A stretch of 19,629 bases of DNA, taken from assembly GCA_021160245.1 (NCBI GenBank), contig JAGHCW010000084.1, positions 1-19,629 of the forward strand, written 5' to 3'. Positions 2,015 through 19,355 of this stretch are shown one piece after another (the first letter of the stretch is position 1; each line of letters starts with the position of its first letter). The stretch is from a bacterium. Its GTDB lineage: Bacteria > B130-G9. The notes beneath the pieces were generated by a model. The model ran no database searches, was not told the origin of the DNA, and saw only the letters and a program-made list of their open reading frames with translations. Both the position numbers and the translations under genes were made by a program.

Positions 2015-2725
2015 TCATTCGAAACCTCGTCCTTCGCCGGCCTCTTCATAGGTCACGCCATCACGGATGTGATAGATGCGCTTGAAGGTTGGAATGATTT
2101 TTTCATCGTGGGTGACAACTATGATCGCGGTTTCAAATTTGCGCGCCATATCATTCAAAATACGGATCACCGCTAATGCGCGTTCGCTATCAAGCGGTGC
2201 GGTAGGTTCATCGGCGAGAATGACCGGTGGGCGATTGACCAGGCCCCGGGCGATGGCCACCCTTTGCTGTTCTCCTCCCGAAAGTTGCGAAGGCATGGCC
2301 TTGGCGCGATGGTCCACGTCAAGCGATTGCAGCAGCTTGACCGCCTGCTTGCGAGAGTCGGCGTTGGGCTTCCCTGCCAGCATGGGCAGCAGGGCGACGT
2401 TGTCGGTCACGTCTAAGAAGGGGATGAGATACGGAGCCTGAAAGATGAAGCCAATTTTGTCGCGACGTAGTGCGCGCAAGTCTCTGACCTTCCAAGCGTT
2501 GCTGTAAATCACCTCGTCGCCAATGGTCATGCGCCCGGCGGTGGGCTCGATGACCGCGCCCAAACACTTAAGCAGAGAGCTCTTGCCGGACCCTGATGGC
2601 CCGATCAGGCCGACAACCTCACCCGGGGCCACCAGCATATCCACTTTCTTCAAGGCATCGACGGCGGTGTCGCCACTGCCATAGCGTTTCCGCAAACCTT
2701 CGATATGAATACCTTTGCTGCTCAT
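2015..2725 (-). CDS. ABC exporter ATPase (DevA/LolD/MacB-like)
   Basis: A 236-residue ATP-binding subunit that powers the adjacent FtsX-like permease. All nucleotide-binding motifs are present: Walker A GPSGSGKSS (42-50), Q-loop FQAPYL (Q96), signature LSGGEQQR (148-155), Walker B VILADEP (168-174) and H-loop His206 in VVTHD. The D-loop region reads DEPTAPLDS where most MacB/LolD proteins have DEPTGNLDS, a minor variation. Length and motifs fit the small LolD/DevA class. The start ATG 2725 lies one base after the permease stop, so the module reads adaptor, permease, ATPase as one unit, the usual DevBCA order. No terminator is visible after the stop. Confidence 0.96.
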   Translation of the reverse strand: MSSKGIHIEGLRKRYGSGDTAVDALKKVDMLVAPGEVVGLIGPSGSGKSSLLKCLGAVIEPTAGRMTIGDEVIYSNAWKVRDLRALRRDKIGFIFQAPYLIPFLDVTDNVALLPMLAGKPNADSRKQAVKLLQSLDVDHRAKAMPSQLSGGEQQRVAIARGLVNRPPVILADEPTAPLDSERALAVIRILNDMARKFETAIIVVTHDEKIIPTFKRIYHIRDGVTYEEAGEGRGFE

Positions 2726-2726
2726 G

Positions 2727-3932
2727 TCAACCTCCTATGGCCTCGGCCGGGTCCACCTTGAGGGCGGCATGAATGGCGATAATACTTGATAGCACGCAGA
2801 TCATCAGCACGGCGACGAACCCGCGCACGGAATCGAGCGGCTCAAGTAGCACATATTTTGGGAAAATCGGCGCCATCAACAGGGTAGCGGTGATCTTGCC
2901 TACCACGAAGCCGATCGCCCCTAGGGCGATGGCCTGTTGCATGATCAAACCGACAATGGTGCGATTCTTGGTGCCAATCAGTTTGAGCACCGCGATCTCA
3001 CGGATCTTGCCGAGGGTCAGGGTGTAGATGATGAAGGCGACAATGGCCGCGCTAACAATCGATAGGATCACCAGGAACATGGCGATCTGTTTTGACGAGG
3101 TGGCGATCAGCTTACCGATGAGGATCTCCTCCATCTGGCTGCGGGTGTAGACCGTCAAACGCTTCCAGCGGCGAATCGATTCCGCCACCTCGTCCGCATC
3201 ACGACCCGCTTCAATCTGGACCAGAACCGCGTTGATGTAAGAGTTGGTGCTTTGCGAAGCGATGACTGCATCGAGTAAACCCGGAACCTGTGGTCGATTG
3301 AACGCCGGGTTTGAGGCGGTGCGGCGACGCTGCTGTCGGATGGCATCGTTGTCCTTGAGAAACTGGGCTTCCTGGGCATCCTTGAGCGGAATGAATATGA
3401 TTGGATCGCCTCCAGAAGAGACCATCCGCCGTGTCAGGCCCACCACCGTGTAACTGTTGCGGCGTATCTGGAGACAATCGCCGAGCTTGAAGCCGCTGGC
3501 GATGTCGGCTACCGCCTCGTAATGGCTACGGGTGATCTGACGGCCGGCGACGAGATACGGCGGCCAGCCGGGTGTGCCAGGCCCGCCCGCAGTAACACCT
3601 GTGACCATCGTCCGCACGTCACGCTCGCCATGGCGCACCTGCATGGTGAGATACGTGACGTTGGCCGTCCGCGCCACCCCCGGCATGCTGCGAATGCCGC
3701 GCCAACCATCGTCGTAGATACTTGAAGGCTCGGCATAGGGACCGAGGGTGTCTTTTTGCACCACCCAGAGATCGGCGCCGCTGTTGTCGAGCAAAGCCTT
3801 GCCATCATCCACCATACCTCGGTAGATGCCCGCCATGGAGAGGGTCACGCCGATCAGCAGCCCAAGACCAACGCCGGTAAAGACGAACTTGCCCCAGGCG
3901 TGCATGATGTCGCGACCGGCCAGGCTGATCAT
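2727..3932 (-). CDS. ABC exporter permease, FtsX/MacB family (DevC-like)
   Basis: A 401-residue inner-membrane permease. The layout is the MacB/DevC type: an N-terminal helix (about 15-36), a large periplasmic domain of about 240 residues (containing SGADLWVVQKDTLGPY), then three C-terminal helices (about 283-308, 330-354, 371-391) and the cytoplasmic tail LKVDPAEAIGG typical of FtsX-like permeases. The conserved GKIREIAVLKLIGT segment between helices 2 and 3 is the expected coupling region. ATG 3932 overlaps the stop of the HlyD-type adaptor by 4 bases. DevBCA systems export glycolipids in cyanobacteria, and relatives occur in many bacteria; the cargo here cannot be told from sequence. Confidence 0.95.
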   Translation of the reverse strand: MISLAGRDIMHAWGKFVFTGVGLGLLIGVTLSMAGIYRGMVDDGKALLDNSGADLWVVQKDTLGPYAEPSSIYDDGWRGIRSMPGVARTANVTYLTMQVRHGERDVRTMVTGVTAGGPGTPGWPPYLVAGRQITRSHYEAVADIASGFKLGDCLQIRRNSYTVVGLTRRMVSSGGDPIIFIPLKDAQEAQFLKDNDAIRQQRRRTASNPAFNRPQVPGLLDAVIASQSTNSYINAVLVQIEAGRDADEVAESIRRWKRLTVYTRSQMEEILIGKLIATSSKQIAMFLVILSIVSAAIVAFIIYTLTLGKIREIAVLKLIGTKNRTIVGLIMQQAIALGAIGFVVGKITATLLMAPIFPKYVLLEPLDSVRGFVAVLMICVLSSIIAIHAALKVDPAEAIGG

Positions 3933-5080
3933 CGCCTGACTCCTGGGATCTGTTCAACTACTTGAATGCGGCTGCGCGCATTCAAGGCTTTTGCGCTATA
4001 GACGACCACCTGGTCGCCGGTCTTCAGCCCTTCACGGACCTGCACCAGACCGTCCAAATCGGTGGTACCCAGAGTGACCTGTGTGAAGTGCAGGTCGCCA
4101 TTCTTGACCTGCCACACGCCCAATTTGCCATCGATGCGCTGGATGGCGGCATTGGGGAGGACCGGTCCGGCCGGAAGTGCTGGTAAAGCAACGGTGACTT
4201 CGGCCAGCTCACCGATGGGCGGTAGCGGCTCGGGCAGGTGATCGAATACCACCTTGGCCAGCACTTCCTCGGTCACTGCGTCGGCCAATGGCTCCATCCA
4301 CAACACACGACCGGTCTCTAACTCACCCGTTTGTGAACGCAATACGATCTGAGCCGGCAGATTGGCGGCAAGCCCACGCGCATGGATTTGATCGAAGCGT
4401 ACATTGACCCACAAACTCTCTGGGTCGATCAAACTCACCACCGTCTGGCCTGCCATAATCGTGGTCCCCGGATCGGCGTCGCGCGCAACAACCAGACCGT
4501 CAGCTGGAGCGATCAGCCGCAAATTGTTGTGTTGCGCAACCAAGGCCTCGCGCTCGGCCAAGACGCGGGCGAATTCGCCGCGCGCTGCGTTCAGACCTGC
4601 CTCGGCGACCTGCGTCTCGTATCGTTTGGTAGCGACCACCTCCTCACTAGAGGAGCGCATCTCCAACAACTGCTCGTAACGTTGCTCTTGTGTTAGGGCA
4701 TAGGTTTGGCGTGCCTGTGCCTCGTCTAATTGTGCATTTGCCCGTTTCAGGGCGGCGTCCTGGGCGCGGATACGTTCGTCAAGATCAACGGGGTCCATTT
4801 CGCCCAACACCTGGCCCGCTTTGACCCGATCTCCCACATGGACGTCCAGTCTTTTGACACGTCCGGCGAAGGTTGGACCGATTTTGTAGGTGTATCGAGC
4901 CTCGACAGTGCCGATGCCGAATAGCGCTGGTGAAATGGATGTGTTCTCAACGGTAGCCAAGGTCACGGGCACTGGCGCAAGGGGCCCAGAGCGCAGGGCA
5001 ACATAGACAAAAAGCGCCAGCAAGGGGATGAGTACAGCAAGCATGGCCAGGGTGCTCTTTCGCACACGTAGCTTTCTCAC
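3929..5080 (-). CDS. ABC exporter periplasmic adaptor, HlyD family (DevB-like)
   Basis: A 383-residue membrane fusion protein for the ABC exporter. It has a Lys/Arg-rich N-terminus (VRKLRVRKS), one membrane anchor (about 10-28), a half-lipoyl segment (VHVGDRVKAGQVLGEMD), a helical hairpin of about 90 residues (DERIRAQDAALKRANAQLDEA...), the second half-lipoyl segment (LIAPADGLVVARDADPG), and a beta-barrel region. The GTG start at 5080-5078 is chosen because the stop of the upstream chimeric ORF overlaps it as GTGA and the protein then begins just before the anchor. The frame is open further to 5140, but that would overlap foreign sequence and add 20 residues in front of the anchor. It is not closely similar to either RND adaptor in the window. 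Confidence 0.92.
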   Translation of the reverse strand: MRKLRVRKSTLAMLAVLIPLLALFVYVALRSGPLAPVPVTLATVENTSISPALFGIGTVEARYTYKIGPTFAGRVKRLDVHVGDRVKAGQVLGEMDPVDLDERIRAQDAALKRANAQLDEAQARQTYALTQEQRYEQLLEMRSSSEEVVATKRYETQVAEAGLNAARGEFARVLAEREALVAQHNNLRLIAPADGLVVARDADPGTTIMAGQTVVSLIDPESLWVNVRFDQIHARGLAANLPAQIVLRSQTGELETGRVLWMEPLADAVTEEVLAKVVFDHLPEPLPPIGELAEVTVALPALPAGPVLPNAAIQRIDGKLGVWQVKNGDLHFTQVTLGTTDLDGLVQVREGLKTGDQVVVYSAKALNARSRIQVVEQIPGVRR

Positions 5081-5463
5081 GACCTGATGCCTAGTCGATA
5101 AGCTATAACGTCCAATAAGCGCCACGGCATTTGAACACACACCCGTGGTTGGGTCAAGGCAGCGGGAGCGCCTCCCTCGTCAACGTTCACCTTCTCGACG
5201 CGGCCAGGGACCTTCGTCCCCAGCTTGGTCTCTTGCGCCGCCTTTAACGTGCCGGTAACGTGAATCGTCGTCCGAATCTCGCCCAGCCGGGCCGGCTCAA
5301 CCTTCACCTCAACCCGCGCCGCGTTGTTGTGGTTGGCGCCGTTCTGGTTGGCCGCGTCCTTTCCGCAACCCAGACCAATCATCATAAACAATGAGATACA
5401 TAAAACCGGCAGACATCTAATCACATTCTTCAAGTTTCTTCTAAGGTAATTAACAGAGCCCAT
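5077..5463 (-). pseudogene. Truncated, chimeric remnant of an RND periplasmic adaptor
   Basis: This 128-codon frame starts MGSVNYLRRNLKN and continues with an adaptor signal sequence and N-terminal domain nearly identical to adaptor 2, through KVNVDEG (residue 97). It then switches to 31 unrelated residues (GAPAALTQPRV...GIRS) and stops. The helical hairpin, second lipoyl half and beta-barrel are absent, so it cannot work as an adaptor. A GGAAG sequence lies about 9 bases before ATG 5463, 45 bases after RND pump 1 ends, exactly where an adaptor for a following pump would sit. The TGA at 5079-5077 overlaps the GTG of the ABC adaptor, so residual translation may still feed ribosomes into that gene. 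Confidence 0.85.
5174..5430 (-). repeat. Adaptor 5' repeat, copy B (inside the truncated remnant)
   Basis: Same-orientation partner of copy A, offset 3669 bp. Seven of the ten mismatches lie in about 20 bp at its left end (5185-5201); the other about 235 bp differ at only three positions. The seven clustered changes give mostly synonymous or Ile/Val replacements. Confidence 0.93.
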
Positions 5464-5508
5464 GACTCACAACTTCCAGGTCTCCGCACGCCGGTCTGCT
5501 TAAGGACT

Positions 5509-8500
5509 CTATTGGTGCTGCTTCGTAGTTTTCCGTCTGCGTGTGAAAAGATCATAGATGATTGGCAACATGAAGACGCTCAGGACGCCGGAGACGAGTA
5601 TGCCACCGGCCGAGGCGATTCCGATCCCATTTCTCATCTCCGCCCCTATCCCAGTTCCAAACGCCATCGGCAACATTCCCAAGACCGCGGCCAACGTAAT
5701 CATGACGATAGGTCTGAAGCGTTCGCACGCTGCGGTAATCATCGCCTTGTGTCGCGGGACACCCTCCTTAAGGTGAACGTTGAATTGGTCTATGATCAAG
5801 ATGGCGTTATTGACCACGATGCCAATGAGCATAACGCCGCCGACGAGAACGAACATCTCAATGCTCTTCCCAGTTATGAACAGGGCCCAAATTATCCCAA
5901 TTATGGTAAGTGGAAGCGTCACGAGTATTATAATGGGCTGCTTGAATGACTCCAAGATTGCGGACAAAGTGAGAATCACTAGCATGGCTGCGATGATGGC
6001 GGCTTCGGCCAGTCCTGCCTGACCCTCGGCCATGACTTCATACATGCCAGCGAATGTGTAGTTATACCCCGGAGGAATGATATTCGCATCGTCAATTTTC
6101 CCACTTATCTGGCTCACGGCTGTGCCCATGGGTTTCCCGGGCAGGAGGTTAGCAAACACCTTCGACACACGTCGCTTGTCCTTGCGCGTGATCTGGACTG
6201 GGGAGAGGTCCTCCTCTATCCGGCCCAAGCTTGTCAGAAGCAACGGATGTCCGGGAACCCCGGGAAAAAGAAACTGTTGAACCTGCTCCTTTCCCTCCTC
6301 CTTCTCAAGTTCCACTACGATATCGTAATTCCTTGCTCCCCGCTTGAATGTGCCGGCGGTAAGGCCCTCGAGATTCGCTCTCATAGTCATCCCCAGGGAT
6401 GTGGCCGGAAAGCCAATATCGGACATCACCGCTCGTTTGGGTCTTATGCGAAGCTCCGGTTTGCCTGCCCGGACGGTCGTATCCACATCAGTCAACCCGT
6501 TGATTTGGTTGGACAGCCCTTTAATCTTCAGAGCCAAGTCGTCAAGTGTCTCGAGGTTCTCTCCGGCAATCTCAAGCTCTATGTCGGACGATTGACCGCC
6601 GACGGGCGATGGTATCGATAACGATACGATGCAGTCCGGCATCTCGGCCAATCTAGTCCGGACCTCCTCCATTAGCTCCCCAATGCTAATTTCTCGCTCA
6701 TCTTTGTCGCTGAACTTAAGCAGTATCTGAGCTAGATAAACGCCCTCGCTCGCCTGGCCCATGACGCCCTCCACCTTGCCAATCGTGCTCAATGAATGGC
6801 GCACCTCGGGAAGGTCCTTCAGCAGTTCCTCAGCCTGACGCAGTTGCAGCGTCGTCCTGCCAAGATCGTTGGAGGTGGGAAACTCGAGCTTGACACTAAT
6901 CTGGCCTCGGTCCGCGTGAGGAAAGAAGTCCATTCCCAGGCCCGGAATCATGGATAGAGAGTGCAGAAGAACGAGTGCAACAACCACCAGAAATGATATC
7001 GCCGCCCATCTCCGCCGCTCAGTGAATGTCAGCAATGCGCGATAGATATTAATGACTCGCACGAATCCCTTGTTCCAACCTCCTTCCATCTTCGCGAGCA
7101 AGGATTGGGATGAGGACTTCTTGGCCCGCAAAATTATGGAGCATAGAAGCGGGGTGAGCGTGAACGAAATGAGCAACGACACAGCCGTCATAATCAACAT
7201 CGTGATCGCAAAGAACTTGATGAAAATGCCCATCATGCCGCCCATAATCGCTATCGGGAAGAGTACGACGATATTGGTGCCAGCGCTGGCGAGAACCGCT
7301 ATAAAAGCCGTGTTTGCTCCAACATAAGATGACTTCTTCACGTCGCCCGTCTCATCGAGGCGCTTGACAATCGCCTCAAGCACAACTATGGAGTTTGCGA
7401 CCAGTATCCCCACTGACATTCCGATGGCCATTAGGGTAGGCGCGTTGAGCGTATAGCCAAACATCTGCATGAAAAACAGCCCAATTACGATCGTAAGCGG
7501 CATCGTAATCGAGACGACCAGCAAGGCACGGAGATTGTACAGGAATAGGAACAGGATAAGGGCGGTTAGAAGAATGCCCTGGCCAACGTTGAGCCATGCG
7601 CTATCCACCATTGATTCAATGAAACGGCCATCGTCTGTAACCCATACCAGCTCCATCCCGGCCGGCAGATCTTGCTTGAGCTTATCCATCGCCTCACGCA
7701 CCATATTCACAACGCGGACCGCGTTGGCGTCAGCCTTCTTAACCACCTTGATCGCTACACAGGGCCGACCGTCTATGTCTGCTTTTTGTCGAAGCTCCTC
7801 TGTGGTCATGTGGACCCGCCCGAGGTCCTTGATGTAGCAGCGCTGGCCCTCTTTGCCTGCGACCTCCAGCTCGCCAATATCCCCGACTCGGCTATAATCC
7901 GCGTCGAATTTCACCGCATACTCAATGCCCTTTTCTCTGATCCGGCCCGAAGGGATTAACCGAATTCCTTGCTGAATAGCGCCCACTACGTCCATGCTAG
8001 AAAGCCCACGGGCAGCGAGCTTCCTCCGGTCCAGTGAGACGTGAACCTCCCGCTCGGCGCCGCCAATTAACTGGACGTCCGCCACGCCGGGAAGCACCGT
8101 GATCCGGTCTCGAAGGGTGTTGTCTGCGTAGTCATAGAGCTCGTCGATTGGGGCGGCGCCCGTCAGTGCTAAACTGATGATTGGCGCCGCACTCACGTCG
8201 AACTTCAGTATCTTGGGGTCCTCGACGCCCTCAGGAAAATCGGACTTGATTAGGTCCAGCTTCTCGCGCACATCCGTGGCAGCTATGTCCACATCAACAT
8301 CCAGATGAAACTCCAAAAACGTCTGGCAAACATTCTCCATGCAGGCCGAATTGACGTGCTTGAGGCCGTCGATTGTCACCATCTTGTCCTCGATCCTCTT
8401 GGCGACATCGGTCTCAATCTGCTTTGGACTTGCGCCGGGATAGGCCGTGGCGATCGTGATGAAAGGCACATCGACCTTGGGCATTAGCTCGATATTCATC

Positions 8501-8595
8501 TTCCTATAGCTATTGATGCCCAAGAGGGACAAAGCGATTATGAGGCAGCCCATTGCGATGGGCCTTCGGACTGACGCGTTGGACAGAAACATCAA
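5509..8595 (-). CDS. RND efflux pump 1, inner-membrane subunit (AcrB/HAE1-like, altered proton relay)
   Basis: A full-length 1028-residue RND transporter with 12 predicted helices in the usual 1+5+1+5 arrangement and two large periplasmic loops (about 31-335 and 555-860). Family landmarks include ELMPKVDVPF (36-45), the TM2-TM6 block from about 337 to 490, and the TM8-TM12 block from about 862 to 1015. In TM4 the positions matching AcrB Asp407/Asp408 read Ala400-Asn401 (GILVANSIVV). In TM10 the position matching Lys940 reads Asn929 (GIVVNNAILI). The canonical proton-relay triad is therefore absent, although the rest of the fold appears intact and no frameshift is seen. ATG 8595 overlaps the adaptor 1 stop by 4 bases. 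Substrate unknown; function as a standard proton antiporter is doubtful. Confidence 0.95.
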   Translation of the reverse strand: MMFLSNASVRRPIAMGCLIIALSLLGINSYRKMNIELMPKVDVPFITIATAYPGASPKQIETDVAKRIEDKMVTIDGLKHVNSACMENVCQTFLEFHLDVDVDIAATDVREKLDLIKSDFPEGVEDPKILKFDVSAAPIISLALTGAAPIDELYDYADNTLRDRITVLPGVADVQLIGGAEREVHVSLDRRKLAARGLSSMDVVGAIQQGIRLIPSGRIREKGIEYAVKFDADYSRVGDIGELEVAGKEGQRCYIKDLGRVHMTTEELRQKADIDGRPCVAIKVVKKADANAVRVVNMVREAMDKLKQDLPAGMELVWVTDDGRFIESMVDSAWLNVGQGILLTALILFLFLYNLRALLVVSITMPLTIVIGLFFMQMFGYTLNAPTLMAIGMSVGILVANSIVVLEAIVKRLDETGDVKKSSYVGANTAFIAVLASAGTNIVVLFPIAIMGGMMGIFIKFFAITMLIMTAVSLLISFTLTPLLCSIILRAKKSSSQSLLAKMEGGWNKGFVRVINIYRALLTFTERRRWAAISFLVVVALVLLHSLSMIPGLGMDFFPHADRGQISVKLEFPTSNDLGRTTLQLRQAEELLKDLPEVRHSLSTIGKVEGVMGQASEGVYLAQILLKFSDKDEREISIGELMEEVRTRLAEMPDCIVSLSIPSPVGGQSSDIELEIAGENLETLDDLALKIKGLSNQINGLTDVDTTVRAGKPELRIRPKRAVMSDIGFPATSLGMTMRANLEGLTAGTFKRGARNYDIVVELEKEEGKEQVQQFLFPGVPGHPLLLTSLGRIEEDLSPVQITRKDKRRVSKVFANLLPGKPMGTAVSQISGKIDDANIIPPGYNYTFAGMYEVMAEGQAGLAEAAIIAAMLVILTLSAILESFKQPIIILVTLPLTIIGIIWALFITGKSIEMFVLVGGVMLIGIVVNNAILIIDQFNVHLKEGVPRHKAMITAACERFRPIVMITLAAVLGMLPMAFGTGIGAEMRNGIGIASAGGILVSGVLSVFMLPIIYDLFTRRRKTTKQHQ

Positions 8596-9809
8596 TTGCC
8601 CTCCGCAAGAACTTTGACCGGCGACCCATCACTCAGGAAGCTCTGGCCTTGAACTACGACGGGCGTGCCCTCAGTCAACGAGCAGTTCTTCAGAAGAACG
8701 TACCCGTCAGTCTGAAGACCCGTTTCCACCTTGACCGAGCGAGCCATTTCTTGCCCGATAACAAAGATAACATCGTTGTCGCCTCTATGCTGAACGGCCT
8801 GCAAAGGCACGCCCAGCCCCTCAATTCGCTCAAGAACTGTGCTTATATCGGCCATCGCGCCCGGCACGACACCCGCCGGTGGGTTCACCATCGAGCATTT
8901 CACCTCAAACGTGCGAAGCCTGAGATCGACCGTCGGGCTTCTGTAGGATACTTTGTAATGCCCTACGTCTCTCTCACCGACCCGGATGCTCATCACCGTC
9001 TCCCCCGGACGAACATCTGCGTAAAACTGGTCCGGCAGAAACGCGGAGGCCTCGATGACCGAGGTATCCTCGATGCGCAGCACAGGCTTGCCCTTCTCCG
9101 GCATTTCTCCGACCTCGTAGTATTTCTTGCTCACTGTGCCATCTATAGGAGCATAAGCAAGAGAGTCGCTGAGGTTCTTTTCTGCGATGCTGAGTGCTAT
9201 TTCGGCCTGCCGCACACGCTCCTTTTGGAGATCCACGAGGCTTTCTGAATGTTTGTGGGCGGCCTTTATCTGCTTATGCAGGCTTTGAACTTTCTCGAAG
9301 GCGTCAGATGAGACGGTGTTGCTCTTGTGTAGTCTCTCGTAGCGTAGGAGGTCGCGATCGGCCTTCTCCAACTGAGCGTCAACCTGCTCAAGACCCGCCT
9401 GAGCCTCCCGCACCGAGCACCTAGCCACTGCCAGGCCCTGACGTCGAACATCAACCGCATGCCGCAGATTCAGAGAATCGACCTGAAAGAGCTTTGTCTT
9501 ACCGGCCACAACAAAGTCGCCTTCATCAACGAAAATCGCATCGATTGTGCCCCCGACCCGTGCCGAGACATTGGCGACGTTCTTGGCCTCCAGGTTGCCC
9601 TGCACGACGACCCGCCTCTCGAATGTCCGTTTGGAAATGGGGGTCTGGACGACTCGCACGCGAGATTGCTTAAGCGCATCGTTCTCGCCGGCGTTGCTTT
9701 CCGAATCAGAACTACAACTGATAGCTGCAAAACACACGCAACAGAGTGCAGCCAAAGCAAGGACAATGGCCCCATGACGACGGACATTCAAAAACGACAT
9801 CTCCTTCAT
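8592..9809 (-). CDS. RND periplasmic adaptor 1 (membrane fusion protein, lipoprotein)
   Basis: A 405-residue adaptor paired with RND pump 1. The signal peptide (MKEMSFLNVRRHG, then a hydrophobic run) ends in AISC, with Cys32 as the probable lipidated residue. First half-lipoyl segment IDAIFVDEGDFVVAGK, helical hairpin of about 90 residues with many Gln, Lys and Glu, second half-lipoyl segment LAYAPIDGTVSKKYYEVG, then beta-barrel and C-terminal domains. The frame is open to 9956, but that would overlap TolC by 113 bp, so ATG 9809 (GAGG 3 bases upstream, 34 bases after the TolC stop) is preferred; ATG 9800 is an alternative. Sequence similarity to adaptor 2 looks low. Confidence 0.93.
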   Translation of the reverse strand: MKEMSFLNVRRHGAIVLALAALCCVCFAAISCSSDSESNAGENDALKQSRVRVVQTPISKRTFERRVVVQGNLEAKNVANVSARVGGTIDAIFVDEGDFVVAGKTKLFQVDSLNLRHAVDVRRQGLAVARCSVREAQAGLEQVDAQLEKADRDLLRYERLHKSNTVSSDAFEKVQSLHKQIKAAHKHSESLVDLQKERVRQAEIALSIAEKNLSDSLAYAPIDGTVSKKYYEVGEMPEKGKPVLRIEDTSVIEASAFLPDQFYADVRPGETVMSIRVGERDVGHYKVSYRSPTVDLRLRTFEVKCSMVNPPAGVVPGAMADISTVLERIEGLGVPLQAVQHRGDNDVIFVIGQEMARSVKVETGLQTDGYVLLKNCSLTEGTPVVVQGQSFLSDGSPVKVLAEGN

Positions 9810-9843
9810 TCCCCTCTTTTCGCGGCATAGCTCAACGTACAAC

Positions 9844-11208
9844 CTACTGATCACTGTCCTCTCCTCCGCTTGTATCTGCAAACGCCCGGTCATCAATCCG
9901 ACTGCCCATCGACCGAAACAGCCGAGCGACCGCAACATCATGGTGGTAGAGCGCAAAATAATAGTTCATTCTCGCGTTGGCCAAGAGAACCTCGGCGTCC
10001 AAGACCTCTGTTATAGTCGCAATACTTTGCGCATAGCGCTCGTCGCTCATCCGGACGTTCTCCGTTGCCTGCTCAATAGCACGCCTCGTCACCGATATGA
10101 GCTTTCGCGCTTCATCTACTGAAAGGTATGACTGCTTAACTTCAAGCAGCACGCCATCCTCGACGAGGCTCGCTCGATGCCGGGCCTCATTGGTCTTGGC
10201 GCGAGCGTAGTCAAGATCGAACTTCTGCTTGCCCCATTGCCAAATATCCCAGCTCGCAACAAGGGAAACCTGCCAGTCCTCGTCGCGGTCCCAGCTCAAG
10301 GGCTTCTTGGTCAAGTTCTTCGCATAGACGCCGCTAATCTGCGGAAAAAAGGCGCTGCGAGTAGCCTTTTCCGAGAACGAGGCGACATCGATTGATTTTC
10401 GCATAACCATAAGCTCGGGCCGCTCGCTCAAGGCCGTCTCCATACAGTCCGAAAGCGACATCTCAAACGGCATCGACAGGTGCGTCTCAAAAAGCTCAAC
10501 GGGTTCCGAGATATCCCGGCCGAGAGCGTTGTTGAAGGCTGCTTTCGTGGTCTCCACGGCATTCTGGGCCTTGATCACGCCCTGTTCGGCCTCGGCAAGT
10601 CGAACGTCCGCTTGGAGTAGGTCAACTTTCGCAACAACCCCTGCCTTATAGAAACTCTCGGCAGTCTTGCGATGCGCTGCCATCGACTCCTTGGTCAATC
10701 TAGCGACGCCCAGAAGCTGTTGCGCCTGAAGAACTGAGTAATAGGCCTGCGCCGCGCCTAGCGTAACGTCCTGCTTCGCGCCCTCAAGCTGCTCCTGGGC
10801 AATGCCGACGCCGCCCGCGGCCTGTTTGCGCGAATAATAAATAGCGCCGCCCATGAACAACGGCTGAACGACCTGGAGCCCAACCGAATACTGATACTTC
10901 CGCATCACCGGCGAAGTCATCGTCTGTGAGCCCGTCCCAAGGTCGAATGACATCGTCTGATAGCGGTCGTGGTCGAGTCGAGTATAATTGCCGCTCAACG
11001 AGCCAGTCGGCAGAAAAGCCGTCGTCGATGATTTGCGCCGAGACTCTGCCGCGGCAAGCGAGGCCTTTGCCTGGTTAATAGCGGAATGATTCGCAAGCGC
11101 CTCGTCAATGCTCTGCTTGAGCGTCAGAGGTTCTGAAGCGGCGGCAAAATTCGATAGGCCGAAACAGCCCGCGAAAATAACTGCTGCAACAACCAGCGCT
11201 CGGTTCAT
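9844..11208 (-). CDS. TolC-family outer-membrane efflux channel
   Basis: A 454-residue outer membrane efflux protein that would form the trimeric exit duct for the pumps in this operon. The signal peptide (MNRALVVAAVIFAG...) ends near FAAAS-EP. Two tandem OEP repeats follow, each with beta-strand segments and long helices; for example AAQAYYSVLQAQQLLGVA in the first half and EVKQSYLSVDEARKLISV in the second. The frame begins at ATG 11226, overlapping the TetR stop by 4 bases, but AAGGAG at 11213-11218 sits 4 bases before ATG 11208, and that start gives a clean signal peptide, so it is used here. It is the only channel gene visible for two RND pumps and one ABC exporter. Confidence 0.95.
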   Translation of the reverse strand: MNRALVVAAVIFAGCFGLSNFAAASEPLTLKQSIDEALANHSAINQAKASLAAAESRRKSSTTAFLPTGSLSGNYTRLDHDRYQTMSFDLGTGSQTMTSPVMRKYQYSVGLQVVQPLFMGGAIYYSRKQAAGGVGIAQEQLEGAKQDVTLGAAQAYYSVLQAQQLLGVARLTKESMAAHRKTAESFYKAGVVAKVDLLQADVRLAEAEQGVIKAQNAVETTKAAFNNALGRDISEPVELFETHLSMPFEMSLSDCMETALSERPELMVMRKSIDVASFSEKATRSAFFPQISGVYAKNLTKKPLSWDRDEDWQVSLVASWDIWQWGKQKFDLDYARAKTNEARHRASLVEDGVLLEVKQSYLSVDEARKLISVTRRAIEQATENVRMSDERYAQSIATITEVLDAEVLLANARMNYYFALYHHDVAVARLFRSMGSRIDDRAFADTSGGEDSDQ

Positions 11209-11212
11209 ATTT

Positions 11213-11218
11213 CTCCTT
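11213..11218 (-). promoter_or_regulatory. Ribosome-binding site deciding the TolC start
   Basis: AAGGAG on the minus strand, 4 bases before ATG 11208. It favours this start over the ATG 11226 that overlaps the TetR stop. Confidence 0.6.
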
Positions 11219-11222
11219 ACGA

Positions 11223-11858
11223 TCATCCTCGCCTCCCAAATCCATCCAAGAATCGCTCGACAACAACTGGCGCGAAGGAAACCAAATCCGTCTTCTCACC
11301 AGACCTAAACCACATAAAGAGATATGAAAGACACATCAGGCGAAAGACGATCGCCTGTTCCGTGGCGTCGATGTCACGCGTAACCCCAGACGCCTTTGCA
11401 TCCTCAATAACAGGAACAAGCAACGCAAGCGGCAGCATCCCACTTTCCTGAAGACGCTTGTGCAACCTCTCTTTCACGGCCCAGGCGAAACCACCTATCT
11501 CCTGCCAAAACTTCAGAACTGCCTCTTTTTTCTTCAGGACATACCCGAAATAGGCGCTGGCAAACGCCTGAAGCTTCTCCCCGGGGCCAACAACCTGAGA
11601 CATCGCATCCCGCGCGAGCCCATTGAGGTCGGCCAATTCCGCCTCAATGACCGCAAAATAGATGTCCTCTTTGTTCTCAAAGAAATTGTAAAGCGTGCTA
11701 ACAGAAAACTCCGACGCCTCAGCGATGTCGTGAAGGGACGTCTCCTCGTAATCTCTAGAAACGAACAGCTTTGACGCTGCCTCGACTATTTCCTGCTTTC
11801 GCCAAGCGGCTTCCCTCTCTCTTCTGGAGAGCTTCTGTGTATCAGATGTTTCGCTCAT
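11223..11858 (-). CDS. TetR/AcrR-family transcriptional repressor
   Basis: A 211-residue regulator. The N-terminal helix-turn-helix is clear: helix 1 KQEIVEAASKLFVSRDYEE, then TSLHDIAEASEFSVSTLYNF and the FFENKEDIYFAVI segment that typically follows the recognition helix. The remaining ligand-binding domain is all-helical and not closely conserved, as is normal in the family. It is the first gene of the efflux operon and overlaps the TolC frame, so it probably represses itself and the pump genes and is released by a pump substrate. Operator-like repeats lie between its promoter and start codon. GAGGA 8 bases upstream of ATG 11858 is a fair ribosome-binding site. Confidence 0.94.
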   Translation of the reverse strand: MSETSDTQKLSRREREAAWRKQEIVEAASKLFVSRDYEETSLHDIAEASEFSVSTLYNFFENKEDIYFAVIEAELADLNGLARDAMSQVVGPGEKLQAFASAYFGYVLKKKEAVLKFWQEIGGFAWAVKERLHKRLQESGMLPLALLVPVIEDAKASGVTRDIDATEQAIVFRLMCLSYLFMWFRSGEKTDLVSFAPVVVERFLDGFGRRG

Positions 11859-12079: not shown

Positions 12080-13951
12080 CTAGAATGGATAGCAGTCTTT
12101 GATCAGACTGATGTGGACGTTGGTCAACTCAATCAATATAAGCAAGAGAATCACACCCAACACCACATATCGCCTCGCCCTCGCCGGCAGAAGGCGCGAC
12201 AGGCCATACGCCCAAATCGCTGCTATTCCGAAGCCGACTGGCAGGAGGTAGCGACCGTTAAATGCTCGGAACTTCCCGACCTTAATCGAGCCTTGGGCTA
12301 TCTGCATGAAGACGCTGAAGGTGTGGATAGCCACCGCATAGAAGAGAAACCACAATTTCCGGGCAGTATCGGAGCCAACACCGTCTCCGCGCCCCCGGAT
12401 TCCAGCGAGATTGGCCCTTACTATGCCGGGGATGGCGAGTCCAAGCAAAGATACACTGAGCACGTAGCCAACAAGCGTCGGCACATAGTTTGTATGGCTC
12501 GCGATCCGAATGAACCAGCCGACCGATATCCAGCCCAGGAAATGCTCGGATGTGATGATCTCCCAATATCCCATCATGACCGGCCAAGCCTTGTCCGGAG
12601 CGAAGGTCGTTCCCGTGATGATCGGTCCTCCGAACATCGAGTAGTTTCTCAAAAACCACCAGCCCGAGATGGCGAGCGTGCAGAAAACAAAGACAGAGGC
12701 GAACATCAAGACTCTCCTCAATGCCCTAAAACTCAGGCCCATTTCCTTCAACAGAATGAATAGAAACACCAGGGGAATCGCCGTCACGAAGAGGAGTTTG
12801 GAAAGAAGCCCCGCTCCGACAATAGCGCCCAATGCAGCGATCCTCCCAACCGAAAGAGGCGCATCGCGCCATCTAACAAGGAGGCACAATAAAGCTGTGT
12901 AAAGAAAGATCAGCAAGTGATCATTGTTGACACACGCCTGGTCGAACGAGAACACGGGCGAGAAGACGAAGAGGCTGGGAACAAGCAGCCACCAATTCGT
13001 GCTTGTGCCAAAGAGTCGCCGCGCGCCGAAAGCCATGAGCCAGACCGTTAGCGTCGAGAGAATGACCGAACAGATCCGAATTGCCAGCACTCTGGTTGAG
13101 ATACAGGAGCCTTCTAGGGCCGCCTCGAGTGGAAGCATAAGAACATAGTAAAGCGGCGGATGATGCGCACACCAATTGGGCCAGTCGGAGGCCAGGACGG
13201 CCAGCTCCTCGTCCTCAAAACCAGTCAACGGCACGGTTCCAGCGGGGCCCGAAAAGGCTATGTCATCCACAAGCACCGTCCCGGACAACGTATCGACAGG
13301 CCGATTGACATCTGACACGTAGATTCGTAGCGTCATGTCCCGGCCGAGGCCTGCATTGAGGTCCGATGAGAAGTCATCGAATCTACAGACTATGTCCTTC
13401 CAGCCATGCCAAACGACGGGCATTCCAAGGTCATGCTCTGTTCCTTCTGAAGTGACAATAGTGATGCCGAGGGACACGTCCGAGCCGTCGCCGAAAACCG
13501 ATAGGCCAATCCCGTCAAAATCCGTCAGGTCAACTTTGTTCCGGTATGCGCATAGAACCTCGCCCCGCTCATCTGTGAAATCATAGCCAAAAACAAGTGA
13601 GTTCTGTCCCGATCGAGCCCTGCTGCGAGACTCGGCGCAAATGCCACCGTTGCCGAATGCCGAGAAGCCATGGCAATAAAACGTGTCTGCGCCCGGCCCG
13701 ATCTTCCCCTCATCCGAGGAGACGCGCCACCAATCCGCCTCGAACGTCGATGTCTTGATCTCCTCGGAAAGACAACAAGTTCTCTGGTCCGGCAGTGTCC
13801 GATCTATGAAGAGGCTTTGAATATACCCATAGTGAGCGCGCTCGTCAGGGCCAGCCCAGAGCGGTAGTAAAATCGCCAGCAGCACGCCATTTGTTAGGTT
13901 GATGGCGACTATTAGAATCAGCAAGATACGAGATCTATCGGATGTAGTCAT
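12080..13951 (-). CDS. Polytopic GT-C-type glycosyltransferase with CBM-like insert (paralog 2)
   Basis: A 623-residue membrane protein. It has an N-terminal helix (about 9-31), then the first-loop acidic motif GPDERAHYGYI (Asp36, Glu37), typical of GT-C enzymes that use lipid-linked sugars. Residues about 95-235 form a beta-rich insert with the look of a jelly-roll carbohydrate-binding module (NSLVFGYDF, DFDGIGLSVFGDGSD, SGTVLVDDIAF). The membrane part resumes at HHPPLYY (263-269), followed by VNNDHLLIFLYT (341-352), several more helices, and NGRYLLP (565-571). The C-terminal motif recalls DUF2142 and related PMT-like families. It is the last gene of the glycosyltransferase operon, 67 bp after its paralog. 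I cannot say which sugar or acceptor it uses. GT-C assignment is inferred from motifs and topology. Confidence 0.85.
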   Translation of the reverse strand: MTTSDRSRILLILIVAINLTNGVLLAILLPLWAGPDERAHYGYIQSLFIDRTLPDQRTCCLSEEIKTSTFEADWWRVSSDEGKIGPGADTFYCHGFSAFGNGGICAESRSRARSGQNSLVFGYDFTDERGEVLCAYRNKVDLTDFDGIGLSVFGDGSDVSLGITIVTSEGTEHDLGMPVVWHGWKDIVCRFDDFSSDLNAGLGRDMTLRIYVSDVNRPVDTLSGTVLVDDIAFSGPAGTVPLTGFEDEELAVLASDWPNWCAHHPPLYYVLMLPLEAALEGSCISTRVLAIRICSVILSTLTVWLMAFGARRLFGTSTNWWLLVPSLFVFSPVFSFDQACVNNDHLLIFLYTALLCLLVRWRDAPLSVGRIAALGAIVGAGLLSKLLFVTAIPLVFLFILLKEMGLSFRALRRVLMFASVFVFCTLAISGWWFLRNYSMFGGPIITGTTFAPDKAWPVMMGYWEIITSEHFLGWISVGWFIRIASHTNYVPTLVGYVLSVSLLGLAIPGIVRANLAGIRGRGDGVGSDTARKLWFLFYAVAIHTFSVFMQIAQGSIKVGKFRAFNGRYLLPVGFGIAAIWAYGLSRLLPARARRYVVLGVILLLILIELTNVHISLIKDCYPF

Positions 13952-14018
13952 TCTAGTATTCGCCCGATTCCTTATGTCCTATCGTCGAGCCGTTGGCCGC
14001 CACAGATGACCCTACCGG

Positions 14019-15878
14019 CTAAAAGGGATACCAATTGCCCATGGCGGTCAGGTAATTGCTTGAGAACTGAACCGATATGAGGATTGCTACTATGATGGCC
14101 ATGACTAATCTTCTTGCCCTTTGAGGCGCGATGTTTGAGACGCCAAAGGCCCAAAGCGCCACGATGCCCGCGATTACAGGGAAGAAGTACCGGCCCTGAA
14201 GCGCTCTGAAATGGCCAACGTTGATACTGCCAGATGATACTTGCGACCAGACGATAACGAAATGAATGACGACAGCGCAAAGCAGAATTTTGAGGCGCCT
14301 CGAGACATCATCCGCAATTGGTATCGCTCGCCTAATAGTTCGTCTGAAAAGAACCCAAAGAAGCCCAATAGCCCCCGGATCGAGAATGAGCGCGGCCATA
14401 ATGAACTGAGCCCGTGTGGGTCTCCTAACAAACCAGCCGAACGCAACCCAATTGAAGAAGTTCTCGGAAAAAAAGAACTCCTTGTATGTCATCTCAGTCG
14501 GCCACACATCCGCTGGCCAGATGCTCGTAAGCGTGATCACCGGATACCCATAGAGCAGGTAGTTCTTAAAAAACCACCACCCAGAAACGGCGAATGCCGC
14601 CAGGAAAAAGGCCCCAGAAAATACTAGTACCCTTTTGAACCTAATTTTGCCGCCGGCGCCACTGCGCTCTGTAAAAAGCAGGAAGACCGGCACCAGAACA
14701 AGGGCGGTCACAAAGAGCAGCTTGGTTATGAGGCCGAGTCCGACGATCACGCCCAGCACAGCGACTCTCTTGAAATTGGCCGGTTCGTTGACCCATTTGA
14801 CCATCAAATAGAGCATGAGCGTATATAGGAGTATCAGCAGGTGGTCGTTGTTGATGTAGCCCTGATGAAGGGCATAGACCGGAGATAGCACCACCAAGCT
14901 CGGCGCCAGCACCCAGAAGAGACCGAATCTTCCGAATATCGCCTGAGAGATGAAGCATACGAGCAGAACTGTAATGGTTGAGAGCACGACTGATAAAAGC
15001 CGCAGCGCGAGTGCCCTTGTGAAGACCGGCGAGTCCGCTAGCAACATATCTATCGGAACGCCGAGAAGATAATAGAGCGGCGGATGGTGCCCCACCCAGT
15101 TGATGGCATCGTCGGCCGCAAATGGCAGCTCAGAAGGCTCGAAACTGGTCACGAGCTGCTTGCGCCCGTCGCCCTGAAGCCATATATCATCAATGAATAC
15201 CGAACCTGAAAACGACGCGCCCGGGTCCGAAGTGTCAGTTACACGGAGGCTCAGCATTGCGCTAATACAGCTGCGATTCCTCACGTTCATCCGCGGGTCG
15301 TTAAAGGGGATCGCTATACTCCGCCAGCCCTCCCATGTAACGGGGATGAGCACCTGATGTTCTCCCGGCCCGCCCGTCAATAGAGCAATCGCCAGCGTGG
15401 CCCTCGACCCGTCCCCGTGGACCCAGAGCCCCAAACTGCCGGAGCGGCTGATATCAAGACCGTCACGATGGATGCCAACACCCTCGCCGGCCAACATCGT
15501 GAACGCGTATCGTATCTCGACCGAATGCTCGCCCCCATGAGCGATACTCTTCGACAGGGAAGCGCATCCCCTTGAATCCATGTCCGGGACAAAGCCGTTG
15601 GCGTAAAACTGCTCCGGCCCCGGCCCAACCTTCCCTTTCCCCTTCTCAACGCGAAACCAGTCCGCCTCATGAACCGAGGCCATGATTTCTTGTGTTACGT
15701 GAAATGTGCGCTGGTCTGGTAGCGTGCCGGTCTGCCAGAGATGTCTGATATAGCCGTAGTGGGGAAATTCGTCAGGCCCAGACCACATCGGGGCCAGGAT
15801 TGCCAGCAACACACCGCTAATCACGTTGATGGCGAGCAGGATCACAAGGAATAGTTTGGCTTCCAGCTTCCATCTCAT
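14019..15878 (-). CDS. Polytopic GT-C-type glycosyltransferase with CBM-like insert (paralog 1)
   Basis: A 619-residue paralog of the next gene, alignable end to end: first helix, GPDEFPHYGYI (Asp36, Glu37), a beta-rich CBM-like insert at about 92-236 (HSVEIRYAF, GSLGLWVHGDGSR, SGSVFIDDIWL), HHPPLYY (264-270), INNDHLLILLYT, and QGRYFFP (561-567). Both proteins end in YPF. The start is taken as ATG 15878, which overlaps the GT4 stop as ATGA; GTG 15890 would add four residues. The protein probably sits in the inner membrane with the insert in the periplasm. Position after two cytosolic-type glycosyltransferases suggests late steps in assembling or decorating a glycan. Substrates unknown. Confidence 0.85.
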   Translation of the reverse strand: MRWKLEAKLFLVILLAINVISGVLLAILAPMWSGPDEFPHYGYIRHLWQTGTLPDQRTFHVTQEIMASVHEADWFRVEKGKGKVGPGPEQFYANGFVPDMDSRGCASLSKSIAHGGEHSVEIRYAFTMLAGEGVGIHRDGLDISRSGSLGLWVHGDGSRATLAIALLTGGPGEHQVLIPVTWEGWRSIAIPFNDPRMNVRNRSCISAMLSLRVTDTSDPGASFSGSVFIDDIWLQGDGRKQLVTSFEPSELPFAADDAINWVGHHPPLYYLLGVPIDMLLADSPVFTRALALRLLSVVLSTITVLLVCFISQAIFGRFGLFWVLAPSLVVLSPVYALHQGYINNDHLLILLYTLMLYLMVKWVNEPANFKRVAVLGVIVGLGLITKLLFVTALVLVPVFLLFTERSGAGGKIRFKRVLVFSGAFFLAAFAVSGWWFFKNYLLYGYPVITLTSIWPADVWPTEMTYKEFFFSENFFNWVAFGWFVRRPTRAQFIMAALILDPGAIGLLWVLFRRTIRRAIPIADDVSRRLKILLCAVVIHFVIVWSQVSSGSINVGHFRALQGRYFFPVIAGIVALWAFGVSNIAPQRARRLVMAIIVAILISVQFSSNYLTAMGNWYPF

Positions 15879-17431
15879 CGCCGCGCCCACATCCTCTTGA
15901 ACTTCTGCGCTGCAACTCGGAGGAATGTTAATAGCCCCTCGTGCATGAGTATCTCTGATGCCGCCGTCAGACCAAACCGAAAGTTACTTGGTGGCCGGAG
16001 GCGGACCAAGCCAGCAGCATCGCCGGCCTCCTCAATCGCATCCTCAATCACCGACTCCAACCCGTCAACATTCGAATCCCAAGAGAATTTCGCTGCGTTT
16101 CTGAGCGCCGCCTCGCCCATCATCACAATAAGAGATCGATCATTGACGAGGCGCCGGATTTCCCTCTCAAACTCGGCCTCATTGCTCGCCAATATGCCTG
16201 AGCCGGTGCCATCGATAAGTTCTGGATGAGCCCCGCGCCGCATCACAACGCACGGCGTCCCCTGAAACTGCGACTCAAAAAGGGGCAGGTCGAATCCCTC
16301 CCACAAAGACATTGAGACGAAGAGGTCGGCGGCCGCGAGAGCTCTCGCAACATCCGTTTCAGACGCGTTGAGCATGGACAGAACGTTCATCTTCTGAAGC
16401 TGCTCCTTCGTTACGGTGTCCGACCGCCCGACGAGCAGCAGTTTGACCTCGGGCATGTCAGCATGGACCCGCCTATAAACATCGATCAACCTATCCACGC
16501 ACTTGTACGGCTGACGTTCGCCGTCGAAATCGATGCGCCCGATGTAGGTCATGAGGAAATCGGTATCCCGAACGCCGAGCCGCTCTCTCAGCGACTTCGC
16601 GGCCTCTCGCTCAATCTTTGGGTAGTGGTCGCAACCGTTATGGACAACCGACGTCCTCTCCGATACTTCCCCGGGCAACTCGGCGGCAATAAACTCTGAT
16701 ATCACGACTATGCGGTCGCATCCGCGAATTGCCTTGAAAACTCGCTCACGCTTGAGCAGCTTCGCCATCCGAACCGCAAGCGATACTTTCTTCGGGAAGA
16801 ACTCCGGGGAGGGCGTGCCGTGTTCAATGAATATGACGGGGCCTTGAAGGCTCTCTCGCCAATAGTAAAATGGGAGCGATTCGACCAGCCAGACGTCGCG
16901 GTCATGCTCCCGAAGCTGTCTCACTGCGCGCTCGAAGAATTGCTGCGAAAATACATCCGCCAGCCTATCGCCATCGCCAAGCTGGACGAGGCGATAATCA
17001 ACTGAGGCGTAAATTGGATCAACCGATCCCGTGAAAACGGCGACGTCGTAGCCTCTTGCCTTGAGCCGCTTGGCCGTCTCATGCACGACGAGATCGACGC
17101 CAAATCCCATCTTCATCCGCTCGGTGAGAATCCCGACACGCGGCTTTGCTTTTTCTTGCTCTGAAGCCTCATCAGCAGGGGCTTCCTCCGTCTCTTTCAC
17201 GAGTCGCGTCTTCTTAATCGTCGATACTATCTCGCGCGCAGCCCGCGAGCTGATTTCAAACTTGAGGCAGAGCTTGCGCTCGAGGTCCTGCCTATTTATG
17301 TTTCTGAGCGCGAACAGAAACGAAGCATCGAGGAAGAATGAGTCGCCATCAGACCTCTGGACTATCCGGTGTGGCTTGCCCGATAGAGTCTCAATCTGGT
17401 CTGTAATGATGCAATCGAGCTCGTTCCGCAT
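15875..17431 (-). CDS. GT4-family (GT-B fold) glycosyltransferase with N-terminal PqqD-like domain
   Basis: A 518-residue protein. Residues 98-470 are a retaining GT-B glycosyltransferase: RVGILTERMKMGFGVDLVVH at the start of the Rossmann domain, VVHNGCDHY near 262, YIGRIDFDGERQPYK near 296, and the nucleotide-sugar motif E378-x7-E386 (EGFDLPLFE). Residues 15-80 are extra: RIVQRSDGDSFFLDASFLF, then LERKLCLKFEISSRAAREIV, whose spacing resembles PqqD-like winged-helix domains, followed by an acidic linker (80-96). A basic tail of about 40 residues ends the protein. It starts 6 bases after the GT2 stop and overlaps the following GT-C gene. The GT4 call is firm; the PqqD-like call is tentative. 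Confidence 0.9.
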   Translation of the reverse strand: MRNELDCIITDQIETLSGKPHRIVQRSDGDSFFLDASFLFALRNINRQDLERKLCLKFEISSRAAREIVSTIKKTRLVKETEEAPADEASEQEKAKPRVGILTERMKMGFGVDLVVHETAKRLKARGYDVAVFTGSVDPIYASVDYRLVQLGDGDRLADVFSQQFFERAVRQLREHDRDVWLVESLPFYYWRESLQGPVIFIEHGTPSPEFFPKKVSLAVRMAKLLKRERVFKAIRGCDRIVVISEFIAAELPGEVSERTSVVHNGCDHYPKIEREAAKSLRERLGVRDTDFLMTYIGRIDFDGERQPYKCVDRLIDVYRRVHADMPEVKLLLVGRSDTVTKEQLQKMNVLSMLNASETDVARALAAADLFVSMSLWEGFDLPLFESQFQGTPCVVMRRGAHPELIDGTGSGILASNEAEFEREIRRLVNDRSLIVMMGEAALRNAAKFSWDSNVDGLESVIEDAIEEAGDAAGLVRLRPPSNFRFGLTAASEILMHEGLLTFLRVAAQKFKRMWARR

Positions 17432-17437
17432 AGACTG

Positions 17438-19264
17438 TCAGTCCCTCTGTCGCGACGGGCGCAGGGCACGAGCGATTCTCTTGACGAGCATATAGAGGCG
17501 ATAGGCTCTTGTGCTTTCGATCATATCCAGCCTTGCTGCGAGATGTTCCTCGCTATGCCGAAGGTCATTGTTCTCCGCGCGCAGGGTAGCTATCTCCCCT
17601 TGCAGAGCAAGAGCCTCCTCCCTTTGGCTATCCAGCTCCTGCTTGAACACCAGAATCTGCTTCTGGTGGGCCAGAACCTCTATCCGGCGCGACTCGGCAA
17701 GGGACTCGAGTTCCCTGACCAGATGGTCCCTATCATCAATCCCCGCTTCAGCCCGCTTGATGATCTCATCACGGTCTGCTATCGAGGCCATTGCATCCGC
17801 TATGACAGTCTCTTTCGCAACAATGGCGCGATCGCGACGGGCGATTTCCGCATCCTTTTCTAAACCGGCAGCAAGGCCCACATCAACCTCATCCTGCTTA
17901 CGGGCAAGCGCCTCAAAGAGGCTCTTCACCTCCTGCGACCTGTCGTGAAGCGCTGCCTCAAGGCCCAGAGTGTGCTTATGCGCCGCTAACTTCGCGACCT
18001 TGAGCCTATCGATCTCCTCGCAGAGGCGAGCCTGAAGAGACCGCATCTGTACTAAAAGCTGAGGCCCCGGCCGCTCATCTCCGAGCACGCCATGGAGACC
18101 CAGGCCCTTGCTCAGCGATGCCTCGACCTCGATATAAAACCTGTTGAAAAATGACGGGAAGAAGAAGCCTTTGAAACGATTGAATAAATCATCATCGCCT
18201 CGTCGCCTTAATCGCTGAAACTCCGCCCTCTTGGCGAGTATCTCATCGAGATAGGAGGCGACGTAAATGACAGCCAGCGGCCCGGAAAGGGCGCTCGCCG
18301 GCACAAGAACCTTATCACTCAAACTGTTGAGCATCTCAAGCACCTTCGAAACGCCTCCCGCGACAGCATCCCGCACATCGGCCTCAGATAGCGCCTCATC
18401 GGCGAGTCGAGGGACAATCCTCGCGGCGTTCATAAACAACGAGGCAGGGAGAATCCTCGAGAGATTCTTCTCCTCAAAATTCTTCAGCACAAAGAGAAGA
18501 GCATTCCGCTCGGCGAGGAACGCCATCGAGGCGCTGGACAGGAACCGTCCCGAGGTCCCGTGATGCGCGTGATAGGCAAGCGCGTCCCTTGTGATGAGGA
18601 CCCGATGGCCGAGAGCCCAGAGTCTGAAGCCAAAGTCCACGTCCTCGAAGTAAGCAAAGAACGAATCGTCGAAGCCACCGATCTGAAGGAAGACCTCCCG
18701 ATCGGCCAGCATAGCGCCTCCACAGGCGAAGAATGTCTCCTCAATTGGGGCTCGTTCGGTCAATTCCGGGGCATCCACCGGGCTCCCAAAGCCCGCCTGC
18801 TGTCCAAAACCATAGAAGTTGATCGTTCCGCCGTCGAAATCGATGGTCTTGCCGTCCTTACTGAGCATCCTACATGCAACACAGGCCACGTCGTCCGACG
18901 AGTCAAGAGCGGAGGTCATCCGTTGCAACCAACCCGGAGCGAGGATAACGTCCGTGTTGATGAAGGCCACGTTCGCGGTCGAGGCCGCCTTGGCGCCTTG
19001 ATTGGCTGCGCGGGTGAATCCGAGATTCTCCTCGTTGCGCATCATGCGAACGTCCGCAAAATCACGTCGGATCAAGTCCGCGGAATCATCAGACGAGGCA
19101 TTATCAACGACGATAATCTCTGCGCCGTGCCCTTGTGCCCTCAACGAGGCGAGGCAGTCCGCGATGAACTCCGCGCCGTTGTAGTTCACGACGACAAATG
19201 TAGTGCTTCCGCTCACGAATGGTCTCACGGGTGAATTAAAATCAAAGCAGATGTCTCCGTCCAT
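17438..19264 (-). CDS. GT2-family glycosyltransferase with long C-terminal coiled coil
   Basis: A 608-residue protein from ATG 19264; TTG 19273 would add three residues. Numbered from the TTG, residues 24-270 are a GT-A, WbbL-like glycosyltransferase domain: FVVVNYNGAEF, VVDNASSD, the metal/nucleotide motif INTDV (NTD 106-108), FACGGAMLADREVF, and the EDVD acceptor-side motif (210-213) in FAYFEDVDFGFRLW. A helical region follows (270-395), then a heptad-rich coiled coil (about 405-585), ending in ARLDMIESTRAYRLYMLVK, a tail type seen in other polysaccharide enzymes. No membrane helix is obvious. It is the first gene of the glycosyltransferase operon. No convincing ribosome-binding site is visible at either start. 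Sugar specificity cannot be told. Confidence 0.92.
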   Translation of the reverse strand: MDGDICFDFNSPVRPFVSGSTTFVVVNYNGAEFIADCLASLRAQGHGAEIIVVDNASSDDSADLIRRDFADVRMMRNEENLGFTRAANQGAKAASTANVAFINTDVILAPGWLQRMTSALDSSDDVACVACRMLSKDGKTIDFDGGTINFYGFGQQAGFGSPVDAPELTERAPIEETFFACGGAMLADREVFLQIGGFDDSFFAYFEDVDFGFRLWALGHRVLITRDALAYHAHHGTSGRFLSSASMAFLAERNALLFVLKNFEEKNLSRILPASLFMNAARIVPRLADEALSEADVRDAVAGGVSKVLEMLNSLSDKVLVPASALSGPLAVIYVASYLDEILAKRAEFQRLRRRGDDDLFNRFKGFFFPSFFNRFYIEVEASLSKGLGLHGVLGDERPGPQLLVQMRSLQARLCEEIDRLKVAKLAAHKHTLGLEAALHDRSQEVKSLFEALARKQDEVDVGLAAGLEKDAEIARRDRAIVAKETVIADAMASIADRDEIIKRAEAGIDDRDHLVRELESLAESRRIEVLAHQKQILVFKQELDSQREEALALQGEIATLRAENNDLRHSEEHLAARLDMIESTRAYRLYMLVKRIARALRPSRQRD

Positions 19265-19355
19265 CCGAATCAAATGACGCGGGACATCCCAAATTCTTCC
19301 GACAGGCTACAACAATGGAGCGATCGGCCGCAAGCACAAAGTCCTGACCGAAGGG

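Follow-up and report, generated by a model that had tools for sequence, protein, structure and literature searches.

A CBM11-like jelly-roll domain in the first loop of paired GT-C-type membrane proteins from Coatesbacteria

What occupies the first loop of two GT-C-type membrane proteins encoded side by side in a Coatesbacteria genome, and what might it contribute to their function? The two genes lie in a window of 19,629 nt (the whole stretch of DNA analyzed), which is contig 151 in a 3.43 Mb genome of 244 contigs (G000), and their products are paralogs sharing 41% identity (Table 1). The sample contained three other genomes of the same family and phylum (G001, G002, and G003), one of which includes contig JAFGIT010000391.1 (Candidatus Coatesbacteria bacterium isolate Zod_Metabat.233). 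The genomes are metagenome-assembled; a second sample of relatives, centered on another genome, comprised nearly the same genomes and gave no independent sampling. To our knowledge, the phylum has no cultured members. In the window, no Rfam families or tRNAs were matched, and promoter and terminator scans yielded signals not clearly above chance. Downstream on the same strand, a drug-efflux-type cluster (1-11858) encodes a TetR regulator, an OEP (TolC-like) protein, and HlyD-type adaptors, along with an ABC ATPase, a MacB-like permease, and two permeases of the RND type.

Table 1. Features of the glycosyltransferase genes and their products, with positions in the window.
Feature	Residues	Position	Strand	Basis
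GT2 glycosyltransferase, 611 aa, long C-terminal coiled-coil-like tail		17438..19273	-	Orthologue 48% identical, same position in locus L019 (G002)
GT4 glycosyltransferase, 518 aa, end overlaps next gene		15875..17431	-	Orthologue 57% identical, immediately preceding the GT-C pair of L019 (G002)
GT-C-type membrane protein 1, 623 aa		14019..15890, likely ATG start at 15878	-	ORF; full-length AlphaFold model matches OST/AftA/ArnT, model confidence low
First transmembrane helix, protein 1	13-31	15798..15854	-	Hydropathy 2.9; K/R on short N-terminal side
GPDE first-loop acidic motif, protein 1, presumed catalytic acid	38-41	15768..15779	-	D and E invariant in 4/4 and in compact homologues
CBM11-like inserted domain, protein 1	101-258	15117..15590 (profile match 15165-15563)	-	Profile comparison
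QLVTSFEPSE, protein 1, first-strand-like yet behind last strand	245-254	15129..15158	-	Weak motif evidence
HHPPLYY motif, protein 1, putative JM2 of GT-C core	268-274	15069..15089	-	Invariant; HPPLYY/QPPLYY in homologues
NNDH motif of GT-C core, protein 1	347-350	14841..14852	-	Invariant in 4/4
GT-C-type membrane protein 2, 623 aa		12080..13951	-	ORF; PMT_2 match
GPDE motif, protein 2	34-37	13841..13852	-	Alignment of four plus homologues
CBM11-like inserted domain, protein 2	97-253	13193..13663 (profile match 13244-13633)	-	Profile comparison
VPLTGFEDEE, protein 2, strand-1-like behind last strand	240-249	13205..13234	-	Weak motif evidence
HHPPLYY motif, protein 2	263-269	13145..13165	-	Alignment of four plus homologues
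NNDH motif, protein 2	342-345	12917..12928	-	Invariant in 4/4

A first-pass annotation of the locus had assigned both proteins to the GT-C type. Four complete proteins were available for comparison, namely the G000 pair and a G002 pair whose members share 42% and 39% identity with protein 1; all four retain the GPDE (or GADE), HHPPLYY, and NNDH motifs, and the paralogs are in tandem in both of these complete loci. GT-C gene fragments also occur at contig ends in G001 and G003, the former reaching the inserted domain described below and the latter stopping ahead of it. In GT-CA enzymes, the catalytic aspartate forms the tip of JM1 in the TM1-TM2 loop, and the same loop holds JM2 (PMC12041299); GPDE and HHPPLYY would correspond to this acid and to JM2, respectively. 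Against Pfam PMT_2 (PF13231), protein 2 scores 29.2 bits (cut-off, 26.1) and protein 1 alone gives no match, while homologues lacking the insert match PMT_2 and DUF2142. A crude hydropathy scan gave 8-10 hydrophobic peaks and a first loop of ~260 residues, with the chain ending close behind the last helix, at YPF. Because a short, positively charged N terminus precedes TM1, an outward-facing first loop is supported. The AlphaFold model of whole protein 1, built from a 4-row alignment, has a mean pLDDT of 45.6, with the helical core partly at 70-86. Searched with Foldseek, this low-confidence model matched the OST catalytic subunit, AftA, AglB, and ArnT at a probability of 1.00 (E 2.9e-4 to 1.6e-3; TM-score about 0.3), with Pmt4 and Pmt1-Pmt2 also among the matches. 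The motifs and the family matches support the GT-C type, and the whole-protein model weakly supports a GT-C fold. A single-protein sequence search of the PDB gave no match, a 4-row whole-protein profile retrieved only weak PDB matches to FlaA and a MurR/RpiR entry, and NCBIfam contained no family for either protein. Matches to NotI, BdpA, and SMC were judged to reflect chance or coiled coil.

Spacing between the first two motifs sets these proteins apart. The distance of about 225 residues originally noted for both paralogs was measured at 225 and 226, and all four Coatesbacteria proteins fall within these values. Among 14 homologues of other lineages, by comparison, the same motifs are 26-33 (n = 11) or 92 (n = 3) residues apart, and homologue profile matches skip from position ~54-69 to ~252-262 of the Coatesbacteria proteins. 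Given these jumps and the 26-92 residue spacing, the first loop is long by insertion, with about 130-200 residues extra; some 140 of the 225-226 residues make up the CBM-like domain. The homologue spacing and profile jumps likewise support the insertion point first proposed, between GPDE and HHPPLYY of the first loop, here read as the catalytic acid and JM2. In the closest insert-less homologues (L061, L062, and L068), 92 residues separate the motifs and the corresponding loop holds a shorter segment of another kind, helical in appearance, so this loop tolerates insertions.

We then asked which domain family the insert resembles. Pfam CBM_11 (PF03425) was the first or second match for three of the four inserts (E 4.6e-5, 0.0069, and 0.054), with none reaching the family cut-off (best, 24.0 of 27 bits); CIA30, Lyase_N, and FlaA were matched beside it. 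For a profile of the four inserts, the top PDB hit was the endoglucanase H CBM11 (E 0.076). Searched against 386 genomes, the same profile found relatives down to E 3.6e-11 per genome, as domains of glycoside-hydrolase-like, N-acetylmuramoyl-amidase-like, polysaccharide-deacetylase-like, phosphodiester-glycosidase-like, and other secreted proteins (host proteins named by inspection, except L012 and L034 by Pfam). A profile of 23 such relatives, taken from unrelated secreted proteins, aligned with CBM11 (1v0a) over almost its full length (E 2.7e-12), reached CBM30 at 3e-6, and also matched FlaA and CIA30 structures; 14 of the 23 matched Pfam CBM_11 (best, 4.5e-24). The insert and relatives profiles align at 99.6% probability in hhalign, and a model built from the 23 relatives alone scores the inserts at 52-83 bits, in a chain of evidence that is not fully independent as the relatives were gathered with the insert profile. 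Across the whole 3.43 Mb genome, the 23-relative profile hit exactly two places, the two loops (E 9e-18 and 2e-17). By profile comparison, the insert thus belongs to the CBM11/CBM30/CIA30/FlaA group of beta jelly rolls; the CBM-like identity initially suggested for about 140 residues is supported, with CBM11 leading among Pfam and PDB families. The tyrosine platform that we take to form the ligand-binding residues of 1v0a comprises Y22, Y53, Y129, and Y152. Residues Y129 and Y152 face other residues in the insert alignment, and Y22 and Y53 fall outside its aligned part. An AlphaFold model of the insert, likewise from a 4-row alignment, had a mean pLDDT of 35, and the insert lies below 50 nearly throughout the whole-protein model. 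Foldseek matches of the low-confidence insert model to galectins and laminin G (E >= 0.08; TM about 0.2) were set aside for this reason.

The boundaries of the insert raise the possibility of rearrangement. The opening strand of CBM11-like domains has the form (I/V)(I/L)xDFE, of which the inserts have no clear copy at their start. Directly behind the final DDI strand, the inserts instead carry LTGFEDEE, LTGFELEE, or LVTSFEPSE, with invariant F and E. A two-copy (tandem) profile produced an alignment running across the junction in one of the four sequences, and by a 10-residue motif score the site came second among 604 columns. These observations are suggestive of a possible circularly permuted CBM11-like domain, a topology that would go well with insertion into a loop.

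The same inserted domain recurs in the orthologous GT-C pair of a Candidatus Coatesbacteria genome and, in part, in the G001 fragment. No protein outside the family joined the domain to a GT-C core among the 386 genomes, a thin sampling of the bacterial domain to which all statements on spread apply. Within this sample, a single little-known bacterial phylum accounted for every instance of the arrangement. The gene order GT2-GT4-GT-C-GT-C is common to G000 and G002, and in G001 and G003, too, the GT-C gene immediately follows a GT4 gene; the four genes look like a cassette for one glycan. The G000 genome has 36 GT2 matches. Two features of the cassette enzymes are kept in their orthologues: a tail of about 200 coiled-coil-like residues on the GT2 enzyme, and an N-terminal extension of the GT4 enzyme (residues 1-80) that lacks a Pfam match and is PqqD-like by eye. 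In the Coatesbacteria relative, PMT_2 and DUF2079 membrane proteins adjoin the cassette (L019:8028-9479 and 9570-11231). In a GT-C protein from another lineage (L083; 716 aa, minus strand), two hydrophobic segments near the N terminus flank a domain that looks rich in beta structure. This domain bears a weak similarity to the sugar-binding domain of GH2 (E 0.024), giving an EmbB-like layout without Emb sequence. Because its N-terminal domain is a different one, combinations of GT-C cores with sugar-binding-like domains may have arisen more than once.

Both enzymes probably attach sugars outside the cell. We favor, at about an even chance, a reading in which the insert is a CBM-like module that holds the acceptor next to the active site of a GT-C enzyme. 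The enzymes would take a sugar from a polyprenyl-phosphate carrier on the extracytoplasmic side and add it to a cell-surface glycan that the cassette's GT2 and GT4 enzymes help to build. The CBM11-like jelly roll, inserted in the first outer loop between GPDE at the predicted JM1 tip and HHPPLYY in JM2, would bind the acceptor glycan and keep it beside the active site. Glycan sensing, polymer positioning, or gating, as envisaged in the first-pass annotation, are roles that the insert may have. A more elaborate version, which we consider doubtful, holds that a permuted CBM11-like domain in the JM1-JM2 segment would link acceptor binding mechanically to active-site closure, with the two diverged copies recognizing different stretches of one surface glycan.

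The main rival to acceptor holding treats the insert as a structural or assembly cap, FlaA/CIA30-like and devoid of sugar binding, that lies over the active site or brings the paralogs together as a pair. We regard it as somewhat unlikely. Its group includes members not known for glycan binding, as seen in the FlaA and CIA30 matches, and these related jelly rolls need not bind glycans; where the alignment can be read, the tyrosines of the CBM11 platform are not conserved, and both complete loci have the paralogs in tandem. The closest profile relatives, however, sit in carbohydrate-active secreted proteins. Divergence is less telling: the insert has diverged more rapidly than the core (31-39% vs 45-53% identity), as the cap would have it, but a ligand-binding module is also expected to change fast, so this difference fits either explanation. 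An improbable third reading is that these GT-C-fold proteins O-glycosylate proteins and that the insert recognizes a protein acceptor or its glycan, as MIR may in Pmt enzymes. The PMT_2 match, the presence of Pmt4 and Pmt1-Pmt2 among the fold matches, and the precedent of GT39 enzymes, whose MIR is a beta domain within a luminal loop (PMC7759382), speak for it; yet the PMT_2 model is broad and takes in bacterial lipid-linked-sugar transferases as well, and the GT2 and GT4 genes of the cassette suggest a multi-sugar glycan. That the insert is an artefact, either a fusion created by assembly error or a chance likeness of simple beta sequence, might be entertained given metagenome-assembled genomes and failed fold models. 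This is barely credible and already contradicted by the whole-genome search and by four genes in two separate assemblies with unbroken frames and identical 225-226 residue spacing.

The domain arrangement is thus real and conserved, apparently new in detail, and assembled from known parts; what it does is proposed here from sequence. The way in which a GT-C enzyme keeps hold of a long acceptor glycan is understood in few instances (Emb, Aft enzymes, and OST). The same core with and without a candidate acceptor-binding module, at a point where homologues have 26-92 residues, provides a natural experiment, and the arrangement may reveal how enzymes of this kind grip a chain during its extension. 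The module further points to an uncharacterized surface glycan in Coatesbacteria.

The closest precedent in layout is found in the mycobacterial arabinosyltransferase family GT53 (EmbA, EmbB, and EmbC), GT-C enzymes that also carry jelly-roll CBMs on the outer side (PMC7305291, PMC7341804). The first-pass annotation knew of no common GT-C family so arranged. This holds in detail, but CBMs near the first loop of a GT-C enzyme have a precedent: of the two jelly-roll CBMs in EmbB, that at the N terminus lies between TMH1 and TMH2 (PMC7305291). In EmbB, however, TM1-2 are additional helices that anchor the N-terminal CBM ahead of the GT-C core, and the catalytic residues D285/D286 follow the module (PMC7341804), whereas here the module follows the acidic motif and precedes JM2 of the core itself. 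The GT53 layout, with a CBM before the catalytic aspartate on two extra helices and a second CBM at the C terminus, is not found in the Coatesbacteria proteins, and the whole-protein profile search of the PDB gave no sequence match to Emb. Nor did we find, in the open-access literature, outside which most subscription papers fall, a description of a GT-C enzyme whose CBM follows the catalytic acid and precedes JM2. Bacterial GT-C proteins of the DUF2142 (PF09913) and PMT_2 (PF13231) families have a similar core and the same motif order (PDE..H, (H/Q)PPLYY, NND) but space the first two motifs by 26-92 rather than 225-226 residues and lack the CBM-like domain. For the insert itself, the CBM11 of Clostridium thermocellum endoglucanase H (1v0a) and CBM30 are alike in jelly-roll profile over most of the domain, with the E-H and the final DD/DN strand aligned; the former is the appendage of a secreted cellulase, whereas in the insert the tyrosine platform is not seen in the aligned part and the first strand has apparently moved to the end. 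The Pmt1-Pmt2 and Pmt4 enzymes (GT39) share the principle of a GT-C core with an extra beta domain in an outer loop, although theirs is the MIR beta-trefoil in loop 4, with the catalytic DE in loop 1 (PMC7759382), and that of Coatesbacteria is a jelly roll in loop 1.
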